This document shows positions 36,101-54,973 of a stretch of 64,000 bases of DNA, one piece after another. The position numbers and the translations under genes were made by a program. Within the stretch, counting starts at the first letter, position 1; the number at the start of each line of letters is the position of its first letter. Source of the DNA: Ornatilinea apprima (GTDB lineage: Bacteria; Chloroflexota; Anaerolineae; Anaerolineales; Anaerolineaceae); assembly GCF_001306115.1 (NCBI RefSeq), contig NZ_LGCL01000021.1, forward strand, positions 1-64,000, given 5' to 3'. Below the pieces are notes generated by a model. That model ran no database searches. It saw nothing but the letters and a program-made list of their open reading frames with translations, and had not been told where the DNA came from.

Positions 36101-36597
36101 TCAAACAGTTCCAGGTAAGGTGAAATGGCCGGGTTGCGGTTGGTGACCCACAACATGATCATTTCTTCCAGGACGATTTCGCGATTGGGCACACCATCGG
36201 TTTCGCCTTCCAGGTAGGCTTTGGGGGTGATCTGGCGCTGGTAGACGGCCACCGCGGGGAATTCGGAGGCAAAATAAAGCAGCACGCGGTCCAATTGTTC
36301 GGCGCCCACGGCGCTCTCAATGAACAACAACGCCTGGCGCATGGCCTGTGGGTTCTTCTGCTGGCGGTACAATGCGATGACGAAATGTAATATCTCATCG
36401 ATCAGCCCCATGGCGTTGATGTTCCCGGCTTTGACAGCGGTTTCAGGGTAATTCACCAGGTCGCGTTTCTGGTTCATTTTTTGGGTGAACTTACGCACGG
36501 CGTGAAAATTGGCAAAAATTACATTGCCATTCAGTTCAAATAAGGATTGATCAAACTCATACCGGTCACGAGCCTGGCGCGAAATATGAAACTCCAT
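33130..36597 (-). CDS. Giant GH13-family alpha-amylase-like enzyme with terminal extensions
   Basis: The 1155-residue cytoplasmic protein has a GH13 barrel in its middle third. Motif I is SDMVPNHMG (391-399), motif II IIRFDAAMT with nucleophile Asp511, and motif III LLLAEAFW with Glu576. Motif IV is FMNNPDERT with Asp637; the usual His of NHD is Pro here, a form I also associate with GlgE-type enzymes. About 280 residues precede the barrel and about 350 mainly helical residues follow it; neither is recognised. An AT-rich TATAAT lies at 36672-36677 on the minus strand, about 75 nt before the start. Intracellular glucan processing is likely; specificity is unknown. Confidence 0.85.
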   Translation of the reverse strand: MEFHISRQARDRYEFDQSLFELNGNVIFANFHAVRKFTQKMNQKRDLVNYPETAVKAGNINAMGLIDEILHFVIALYRQQKNPQAMRQALLFIESAVGAEQLDRVLLYFASEFPAVAVYQRQITPKAYLEGETDGVPNREIVLEEMIMLWVTNRNPAISPYLELFDDSDLSLNTAYRQVMESASDFFNTQPAFGPENQHLIQLLRIPAIAVPHSLPGQLEYIRERWSVFLGKYLYRLLSSLDLIREEEKMRFFGPGEVPVPIYDLSMLEDAERFSPDREWMPRLVMLAKNTYVWLSQLSRQYKEDINRLDQVPDEELDRLARAGFTGLWLIGLWERSHASASIKRMCGNPEAIASAYSLKNYEIAYDLGGEEAYQNLRDRAWQRGIRLASDMVPNHMGIDSNWVAEHPEWFVQLDYSPFPSYSFNGPNLSSDDRVTIQLEDHYFNRTDAAVVFRLIENHTGRHHFIYHGNDGTSMPWNDTAQLNYLIPAVREAVIQTILHVARKFPIIRFDAAMTLAKKHYQRLWFPEPGSGGDIPSRAEYGLTKEQFDQAFPQEFWREVVDRVAVETPDTLLLAEAFWLMEGYFVRTLGMHRVYNSAFMNMLRDEKNAEYRQLIKNTLEFDPQILRRYVNFMNNPDERTAIDQFGDGDKYFGICALMSTLPGLPMFGHGQIEGYAEKYGMEFKRDYWNEPVKEYLVDRHQREIFPILHRRAQFADVVNFNLFDFFTTGGGVNENVYAYTNGLGDSRSLVVYNNSFNSTQGWIRLSAAVSIKQDGSDQRRLVQRSLVEGLNLHPQADRYVILRDSPHHLEYIRPSQELAQNGLYLELDGYKYLVFMDISEVQDDAAQSYRHLCEFLNGRGVPSIEEALQSMLLKAVQIPYREIAHPAYLQYLLDQRAAEFEEENRLALINEAVEKQSGLLKGIQTHTSEFNGYPESLDQLAREMEVILSLEKLEALYPLPGAKKYQAALKLVQTRLKDEKYWKILFGWLFVNHLADLNPQLPNTTLCLSRFDEWQFGKMLASAYQQMGEEESAAWAMVARVRLLILLSGWKLDPADQTAAQAVKAWLAEEDIRRFLDVNRFKEVLWFNKEAYEEWCWWLLVLKAIQNAANPQVDANRFVEEMVKTSQFIQQLLDAKDQSGYQVAGLIDALEQAGE

Positions 36598-53126: not shown

Positions 53127-53155
53127 TTGACAATTATTGGTTGCGTTTGTATAAT
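53127..53155 (+). promoter_or_regulatory. Perfect consensus sigma70 promoter
   Basis: TTGACA (53127-53132), exactly 17 nt, and TATAAT (53150-53155). Transcription should start near 53162. It is the best promoter match noticed in the window. Confidence 0.85.
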
Positions 53156-53161
53156 TTTTTT

Positions 53162-53331
53162 ATAATTGATTTATTATTTAACAGGTAAAAATTTGCTAAT
53201 CACATAATTAGTAAACCCCTGCATTTCATTACAGGATGCGTCGATCCAGACATTTTAATTGGTCGCTTTGCTCACATTGAGCGGAGTGTCTGGGGAGCAA
53301 AGTAGCGAAACCGGCCTTAGCGGCCGTTTTT
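53162..53331 (+). ncRNA. Candidate structured leader or small RNA ahead of response regulator
   Basis: About 170 nt run from the expected start of the consensus promoter to a terminator. Visible pairings are CTAAT/ATTAG (53196-53200 with 53207-53211), CCTG/CAGG (53218-53221 with 53232-53235) and CCAGACA/TGTCTGG (53246-53252 with 53287-53293). CTTTGCTC (53266-53273) can pair with GAGCAAAG (53295-53302), which together with the previous stem makes a pseudoknot. The same segment can instead form a local GCTC/GAGC hairpin (53270-53273 with 53279-53282). I could not match it to a known riboswitch class. Confidence 0.55.
53312..53331 (+). terminator. Terminator within the response regulator leader
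   Basis: CGGCC/GGCCG (53312-53316 with 53322-53326) with a TTAGC loop is followed by TTTTTG. It lies 38 nt before the response regulator start, so it either ends a small RNA or acts as an attenuator. Confidence 0.7.
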
Positions 53332-53368
53332 GTTTAATTCAGCATATCTTTGAGGAGGGAAACACTGC

Positions 53369-54139
53369 ATGGAAGAATTGACATCCAAAGAGGTAAAACA
53401 AGAAGTATCGAGTGGTATTGGCGTCGACTTGGACCAGGTTGACGGTCAGGAGCGGCAGCGAATTCTGGTGATTGACGATGAGGCCGATACCAGCTATCTC
53501 TTAAAACAAATTTTACGGATTGCCGGGTACAACGTTTTATCGGCGGCAAATGGCGCCGAAGCCATCAAGAAGACCATGGAATACTCTCCAAACTTGATTT
53601 TGCTGGACATCATGATGCCGGAGATGGATGGATGGCAGACTTTTGAGTATTTAAAGCGCATGACCAATGTACCGGTGATTGTCGTTTCCGCGCTGACCTC
53701 CAAAGATCATATTGTTGATGGGCTGCGGCAGGGGATTGATGACTATATTCCCAAACCGTTTTATAACGCTGAGGTGATTGAGCGGGTGAACGCCGTATTG
53801 CGCCGCACCAACCGGCCGCAAGAAATTACGCGCCTGGTCTTTCCGTCGGTGGGCCTGACGATTGACCTGATTAATCAGGAAGTTGAGCTTTTGGGCAACA
53901 GTATTCGCCTGACACCCAAAGAATTTTCGGTGTTATCGGTGTTGGCAAAAAACGCGCCGGCGATTGTGCCGTACGAAAAGATCTCCCACCTGGTATGGGG
54001 AGAAGATTCATCGGACGTGCGCAAGCGCACCAAATATCTGATCTATCTTTTGCGCCAAAAATTTGATAAGATTTCATCTGGATCCCAGCTGATTCTCAAT
54101 GTGGACCGCCTGGGATACAAACTGCAAACGGAGAATTAA
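53369..54139 (+). CDS. Orphan response regulator, OmpR/PhoB-like
   Basis: The 256-residue product has an N-terminal extension of ~30 residues and a receiver domain with Asp36/Asp37 (VIDDEAD), phospho-acceptor Asp80 (LILLDIMMPEMDG), Ser107 and Lys129 (IPKPF). A C-terminal winged-helix domain follows (RLTPKEFSVLSVLAKN to DRLGYKL). No histidine kinase is adjacent. A strong GAGGAGGG (53352-53359) precedes ATG 53369 by 9 nt, downstream of an attenuator-like terminator. The sortase gene follows after 48 nt and may be co-transcribed. Confidence 0.92.
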   Translation: MEELTSKEVKQEVSSGIGVDLDQVDGQERQRILVIDDEADTSYLLKQILRIAGYNVLSAANGAEAIKKTMEYSPNLILLDIMMPEMDGWQTFEYLKRMTNVPVIVVSALTSKDHIVDGLRQGIDDYIPKPFYNAEVIERVNAVLRRTNRPQEITRLVFPSVGLTIDLINQEVELLGNSIRLTPKEFSVLSVLAKNAPAIVPYEKISHLVWGEDSSDVRKRTKYLIYLLRQKFDKISSGSQLILNVDRLGYKLQTEN

Positions 54140-54187: not shown

Positions 54188-54973
54188 ATGAAAACGCCCA
54201 GGCAATTCAGCATCAACGAAAACTGGCTGGTCATGGTTGGCTTAGTGCTGGTCGTTTGGGGGGTGATTGGCGCGGCAGGGGTGTTTGAATCGGGAGGGTT
54301 GCAGAATATCTTCAACGGCGGCGTGCAGGCCGATGGCGAGGGATTTGTGCCGTATTCTGTGCCGTTGGACGAAGAATCCCTGGCTATTCTGGAAGAAGCT
54401 ACCAAACTCGAAGGCGGCTCGGGGCTGGCGCCTATGATCGAAAAGGCGGATATCCGCCTCTCAGGGAAGGAAGATGACCAGGCAACGCCGATGCCTACAC
54501 CTACACCGCCACCGCCCGCTGATCCCAACCGTGTAGTGATTCCAAAAATTGAACTGGTTGCCCCAGTGATTGAGGCAAAATCGCGGAAAACCTGGATGGC
54601 AGCCGAGCAGTATGAACAATGGCTGGCCCCCGATGAGTTCGCGGTTGGCTGGCATGGCGATTCGGCCCGTTTGGGAGAGGTTGGAAACACGGTTCTGAAT
54701 GGTCACCACAACATCCACGGTCAAGTTTTTCGCGACCTGGAAAAATTGGAGACCGGTGATGAAATTATAGTGTACGGGAATGGAATTCCTTTTTCTTATG
54801 TGGTGGTGAATAAGATGATTTTGCCTGAAAAGAACGCGGCGCCTGAAGTTCGTTTGGAAAACGCTCGCTGGATTATGAAATCCGACGATGAGAGGCTTAC
54901 CCTGGTTACTTGCTGGCCGTTTGAATCGAACACACACCGTTTGATTATTGTGGCTGTTCCCGCGCAGAAATGA
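54188..54973 (+). CDS. Sortase family transpeptidase
   Basis: The 261-residue product has an N-terminal membrane anchor (~12-32), a Pro/Thr-rich spacer near 100-112 and a sortase domain. The catalytic His173 is in LNGHHNIHG, Cys242 in LTLVTCWPF and Arg251 in THRLIIVAV. Sortases attach proteins bearing a C-terminal sorting signal to the wall or to each other. I found no protein in the window with an LPxTG-type C-terminal signal, so substrates must be elsewhere. It follows the response regulator gene. Confidence 0.9.
   Translation: MKTPRQFSINENWLVMVGLVLVVWGVIGAAGVFESGGLQNIFNGGVQADGEGFVPYSVPLDEESLAILEEATKLEGGSGLAPMIEKADIRLSGKEDDQATPMPTPTPPPPADPNRVVIPKIELVAPVIEAKSRKTWMAAEQYEQWLAPDEFAVGWHGDSARLGEVGNTVLNGHHNIHGQVFRDLEKLETGDEIIVYGNGIPFSYVVVNKMILPEKNAAPEVRLENARWIMKSDDERLTLVTCWPFESNTHRLIIVAVPAQK

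Follow-up and report, generated by a model that had tools for sequence, protein, structure and literature searches.

A predicted divergent c-di-GMP-II riboswitch upstream of a response regulator and a sortase in Ornatilinea apprima

Promoter, leader and downstream genes

The window, as we call the whole 64,000-nt stretch of Ornatilinea apprima DNA analysed here, contains on its forward strand a promoter, a structured and terminated leader, and genes for a response regulator and a sortase. The promoter is of the sigma-70 type (53127-53155) and matches the consensus at 12 of 12 positions, with a −35 box TTGACA (53127-53132), a 17-nt spacer and a −10 box TATAAT (53150-53155). Transcription would be expected to start near 53162. 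The local scan found two promoter-like sites against 1.6 expected, which is chance level. Among 153 distinct regions 5' of related RNAs, 22 had a 12/12 match and another 22 an 11/12 match; in shuffled upstream regions these occurred in 0 and 0.1%, respectively.

The leader from 53160 to 53340 had a folding energy of −50.6 kcal/mol (z −3.41), which none of 200 shuffled sequences equalled. The best BLAST alignments of its relatives start no earlier than query base 89, near 53228. An AT-rich hairpin of 9 bp, TTTGCTAAT/ATTAGTAAA, is predicted 5' of the aptamer at 53191-53214. It is followed by CCCC at 53216-53219, which pairs with G residues near 53292-53295 in the predicted fold, and the region 53191-53219 might serve as an antiswitch element.

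A ribosome binding site, GAGGAGG, was read from the sequence at 53352-53358, followed by an ATG at 53369. The gene (53369-54139) encodes a 256-amino-acid OmpR/PhoB-type response regulator with the domains Response_reg (PF00072) and Trans_reg_C (PF00486). Its Asp80 is invariant in 21 orthologs and is taken as the phosphoacceptor. The next gene begins 48 bp further 3' (54188-54973) and encodes a 261-amino-acid sortase (PF04203, E 4.3e-24). Both genes probably lie on one transcript, and the regulator may control the cell surface. The first-pass annotation had described a consensus promoter, a structured leader of about 150 nt and a ribosome binding site ahead of a gene, all of which agree with the results above; its description of the regulator as an orphan fits the absence of a histidine kinase among the neighbouring genes scanned for domains.

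An orthologous regulator (about 45-71% identity over nearly the full length) lies 3' of the RNA at 20 other loci among 104 unique downstream ORFs. This share (21/104 with the window included) is biased, since loci L130-L140 were chosen by BLAST likeness to the leader and L141-L170 by top score with R1, the covariance model described below. A simple rule of length and distance selected the ORFs; five hits yielded none. In the reverse test, the RNA was found directly upstream on the same strand in 25 of 30 regulator loci, again including the window; the loci lacking it there were L186, L187, L188, L190 and L193. When 80 regulator loci from named organisms were searched, the RNA was present at three of the five closest and at none of the other 75.

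Eight further loci have a related sortase behind the regulator. Elsewhere secreted repeat proteins follow it, two of which carry, by eye, a LIPVTG-like motif near the end. Other first genes behind the RNA encode DUF11, DUF7507, PKD, MBG, beta-helix and sugar transferase domains. The O. apprima genome itself has a second riboswitch with a regulator copy, 65% identical (G000:C42:118009-118913, locus L112), and the gene after that regulator resembles, by eye, a sugar transferase for exopolysaccharide. Judged from its sequence, the genome encodes c-di-GMP synthesis, with 25 GGDEF matches above cut-off.

Aptamer helices and class assignment

A c-di-GMP-II-like aptamer was located at 53225-53324. 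The Rfam model RF01786 (cyclic di-GMP class II riboswitch) scored 41.5 bits there, with E 1.1e-7 in the 536-base stretch searched. R1, a covariance model of 43 sequences, covered 53222-53328 with 86.2 bits, a score to be read with the window RNA being one of those 43. Its matches elsewhere in the window were weak, the best reaching 14.3 bits at 36159-36223 on the minus strand. The Rnk leader, also considered, gave 14.6 bits at E 9.1 and was rejected as a chance match.

For covariation analysis, 74 hits (the window and 73 others) gave 60 of the long type, of which 43 were aligned (alignment A1); the 17 left out had long inserts or low scores. The P1 5' strand AGG (53233-53235) pairs with CCT (53315-53317); P1 has 3 bp here and is longer in many relatives, and it was paired in 67.4% of cells of A1. 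P2 joins TGC (53237-53239) to GCA (53297-53299), with 96.1% paired. P3 joins CCAGACA (53246-53252) to TGTCTGG (53287-53293), with 93.0% paired and double changes in 7/7 pairs. The pseudoknot strand GGTCGCT (53261-53267) pairs with AGCGA (53304-53308) and CC (53311-53312), with 98.7% paired. An accessory hairpin, P4 (GCTC/GAGC, 53270-53282), is variable in sequence; it was paired in 66.0% (MAFFT alignment) and showed double changes in 5/5 pairs.

Taken together, these five helices (29 pairs) were paired in 84.0% of cells against 70.1% after shuffling. Their covariation score was 0.429, compared with 0.171 for shuffled and 0.085-0.121 for slid versions, and 20 of the 29 pairs change on both sides, so the covariation check on homologues proposed in the first-pass annotation supports the stems. 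The pseudoknot is almost invariant within A1, and its covariation was seen in a wider set of 154 unique RNAs: pair 40-68 is T-A in 145, G-C in 5 and A-T in 1, and pair 42-66 is G-C in 135 and A-T in 14. Thus P1, P2, P3, P4 and a class II pseudoknot are all supported by covariation. The pseudoknot first proposed for this leader interleaved two helices. One of them, CCAGACA/TGTCTGG, stands as P3; the other, CTTTGCTC/GAGCAAAG, was rejected, being paired in 52.8% of the 43 sequences versus 51.3% after shuffling and 24-48% for slid versions.

In the covariance-model alignment, P1, P2 and P3 appear in the order of RF01786, and a pseudoknot joins the P3 loop to the strand of A69 and A70. Like RF01786, the aptamer also has A69, A70, C71, C72, G73 and the GGAG joint. 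It differs from RF01786 in a U-A pair at 40-68 where that family has G-C, in the accessory P4, in the 3-bp P1 and in its score, which at 41.5 bits lies below the gathering score of 53.5. For this last reason a default Rfam scan misses the leader; run on the window at gathering scores, it returned two tRNAs only. Because of this score and the absence of C68, we file the RNA as a divergent variant of the c-di-GMP-II class instead of an ordinary RF01786 member. The earlier statement that the leader matched no known class is superseded by the Infernal/Rfam comparison, and of the forms then offered (riboswitch or attenuator, or small RNA) the class II match, the covariation and the placement favour the riboswitch, whereas nothing in the evidence calls for a small RNA.

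Ligand-site core, variant families and distribution

According to PMC7288161, the ligand contacts in structure 3Q3Z are A13, A14, U37, G39, U60, A61, C68, A69, A70, C71, C72, G73 and A74. With this numbering the core A69-A70-C71-C72-G73 lies at 53309-53313. The window has the contact bases U37, G39, A69, A70, C71, C72 and G73, each kept in at least 149 of the 154 RNAs (U37 as T in 149, G39 in 151, A69 in 154, A70 in 149, C71 in 153, C72 in 153 and G73 in 152). C68 is missing: the window has A68, paired with U40 in place of G40, and 147 of the 154 RNAs likewise have A there, with C in 6. Position 13 is A in the window, A in 102 of the set and C in 44. The column taken as A61 is A in at least 90% of A1, the merged 154-RNA alignment being unreliable there. 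The core reads GAAA in the window and in 141/154 RNAs. The aptamer is predicted to bind c-di-GMP.

Rfam holds two variant families, RF03169 (c-di-GMP-II-GAG) and RF03170 (c-di-GMP-II-GCG), which were reportedly first described by Weinberg et al. in PNAS in 2017. PMC12452182 only lists them. The RF03169 consensus is GGC-GAG-ACC, and we take G69, on our own reading of the name, as its distinguishing base. The window locus shares the GGUCGC/GCGA pseudoknot and A68 with RF03169, but scores 35.1 bits against a gathering score of 40 and has A at position 69 where the GAG consensus has G. RF03170 (cut-off 47.9) gave no match to the window locus at E 0.01; two paralogs scored 34.8 and 33.9 bits. On its sequence, therefore, the core is of neither variant type: A69 and A70 are canonical, and U40-A68 replaces G40-C68.

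RF03169 has matches above cut-off in 50 of 121 genomes of the family, and the RNAs at L171-L180, chosen as its best above-cut-off matches, have A69. In the 36 genomes of the same order within the phylum sample (1 own, 9 of the family, 26 of the order), a G69 pattern had no match and an A69 pattern matched in 14. Aptamer-like G69 matches occur in other lineages of that sample. One genome, G409, has both types, three RNAs with A69 and one with G69 that are otherwise alike (e.g. C165:3582-3619 and C58:1323-1360), and these look as if GAA preceded GAG.

A change of A70 to C occurs in 4 of the 154 RNAs (L101, L159, L199 and L224). The first is a paralogous aptamer of O. apprima itself (G000:C23:220638-220753; L101:3539-3654, minus strand; GCGAACCC), at which no overlapping terminator was seen. 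Short relatives of canonical type, with GGGCGC/GCGCAACC and no space for P4, were found in another family of the order (L063:298-390, L064:3482-3573, L065:3523-3614 and L094:3473-3563); their core sequence is nearer to RF01786.

Among sampled genomes of the order, RF01786 had matches in 39 of 151, above cut-off in 2, and it matched none of 14 control genomes. With R1, the RNA was detected in 70 of 121 genomes of the same family, most often as multiple copies. In a sample of 400 genomes from across the phylum, 77 had it. The R1 matches listed from outside the order are mostly about 90 nt, with no space for the extra hairpin. Literature searches pairing c-di-GMP-II with Chloroflex, Anaerolineae or Anaerolinea, and with GAG or GCG, found this RNA undescribed in open-licence papers, which is weak evidence of absence.

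Terminator and proposed switching

An intrinsic terminator, CGGCC-TTAGC-GGCCG-TTTTT, lies at 53312-53331, where the first-pass annotation had placed a terminator with five T residues. Its stem pairs 53312-53316 with 53322-53326, and the 5' arm consists of C72-G73-G74 of the aptamer (53312-53314) together with the 3' strand of P1. The relatives generally show the pattern AAACCGRCC...GGYCGGTTTT. Terminator tests used 115 hits, made up of 90 of 92 (the two lowest-scoring, L129 and L114, were dropped) and 25 of 35 (ten duplicates were dropped). The core could not be placed in L127 under the strict rule, nor in three hits under a laxer one, leaving 114 and 112. A 3' arm able to pair with the aptamer core, with T residues after it, was found in 87/114 hits, compared with a mean of 5.8 and a maximum of 14 in 200 shuffles; the overlapping terminator was absent under this rule in 27/114. 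Under the laxer rule a hairpin beginning in the core was found in 98/112 hits. In both A70C cases read (L159 and L224) the terminator arm was altered together with A70C. Of the three other copies in the O. apprima genome, the one on contig C42 has an overlapping terminator, and none was seen on contigs C34 and C23.

Some loci carry two or three copies in a row. In L137:3450-3849 and L135:265-493 each copy has its own terminator, while in L070:186-404 and L160:1391-1607 two aptamers 3-4 nt apart have one terminator in common.

Because the 5' arm of the terminator is the aptamer core itself (ACCGGCC), aptamer and terminator should be mutually exclusive, and a ligand-dependent 'on' switch is therefore the most likely arrangement. 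RNA polymerase would start near 53162 and transcribe a class II aptamer composed of P1, P2, P3, an H-type pseudoknot and P4. When no ligand is bound, the nascent core ACCGGCC (53310-53316) would pair with GGCCGTTTTT and transcription would end near 53331. With ligand present, A69, A70 and G73, as well as the pseudoknot and P1 strands that share this core, would be held in the aptamer; the terminator would be blocked, and the response regulator and sortase would be transcribed. The sequence suggests c-di-GMP as the signal in the 'on' direction, and the riboswitch probably turns on a gene regulator together with an enzyme of the cell surface. We put the probability of the whole reading, a transcriptional c-di-GMP 'on' switch for regulator and sortase, at about 0.87. 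Its basis is homology, covariation, the ligand-site bases, the overlap of terminator and core, and gene linkage.

In a pseudoknot-free fold of the 119-nt RNA alone, the minimum-energy structure (−37.5 kcal/mol) contained P2, P3 and the terminator as well as an extended P4. When the 5' leader was included and the terminator 3' arm left off, pseudoknot-free modelling gave P3 a probability of at most 0.03, which counts partly against the aptamer. Such folding leaves both directions and sequence alone cannot give one, so that an 'off' switch, in which ligand favours termination, could be proposed; it is quite unlikely, since the terminator 5' arm uses the pseudoknot strand and ligand-site bases and thus excludes the aptamer, and since the class II switches of C. 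difficile are uniformly 'on' according to PMC6200980. That the class II fold here serves another ligand, such as a different cyclic dinucleotide, through U-A at 40-68 and the lineage-wide GAA core, seems unlikely too. Rfam does separate sequences changed at this spot as the GAG and GCG families, and the GAAA core is nearly fixed (141/154), but A69 and A70 are canonical, pair 40-68 stays Watson-Crick and is G-C or A-U in some relatives, and the genome has its 25 GGDEF matches.

A broader form of this idea combines C or A at base 68 with A or G at base 69, giving canonical GCA, GCG, GAG and the GAA seen here. The Anaerolineales aptamers would then be a fourth specificity type, preferring another cyclic dinucleotide or binding c-di-GMP with shifted affinity, from which GAG arose; the A70C offshoot of GAA, one copy of which is in the O. 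apprima genome, would be covered as well. We regard it as doubtful. The strong promoter and terminator would suit a terminated RNA of about 170 nt that is itself the product, with the regulator served by another promoter, but this is very unlikely for an RNA that shows aptamer-type conservation, precedes varied genes in many genomes and stands directly upstream in 25/30 regulator loci. Chance structure without function is contradicted by the covariation, the homologs, the promoter and the gene linkage and is hardly credible.

A c-di-GMP 'on' switch of this kind would resemble known systems of C. difficile. There the class II riboswitch Cdi-2-2 precedes cmrRST and raises response-regulator expression (PMC8844915), and the regulators are of the OmpR family according to the abstract of PMC12548384. 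That operon belongs to another phylum and includes a kinase and an invertible DNA switch, whereas the window has no adjacent kinase and a sortase next. Other C. difficile class II switches precede sortase-dependent adhesins, so that c-di-GMP raises sortase-dependent surface proteins (PMC6200980); here the sortase gene itself is behind the switch.

Taken on the whole, the leader RNA is, as far as sequence comparison can tell, a divergent c-di-GMP-II variant below the Rfam threshold that would work like that class and has a conserved regulator-sortase target. Much of the c-di-GMP regulon in this little-studied phylum thus escapes default annotation (RF01786 above cut-off in 2/151 genomes versus R1 in 70/121), and Rfam calls in this lineage may carry the GAG name though the consensus G69 is absent. 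The aptamer offers a testable intermediate between the canonical class II aptamers and their variants. Its targets, namely the regulator, the sortase, repeat-rich surface proteins and sugar transferases, point to control of the cell surface by c-di-GMP, a parallel to C. difficile in a different phylum.
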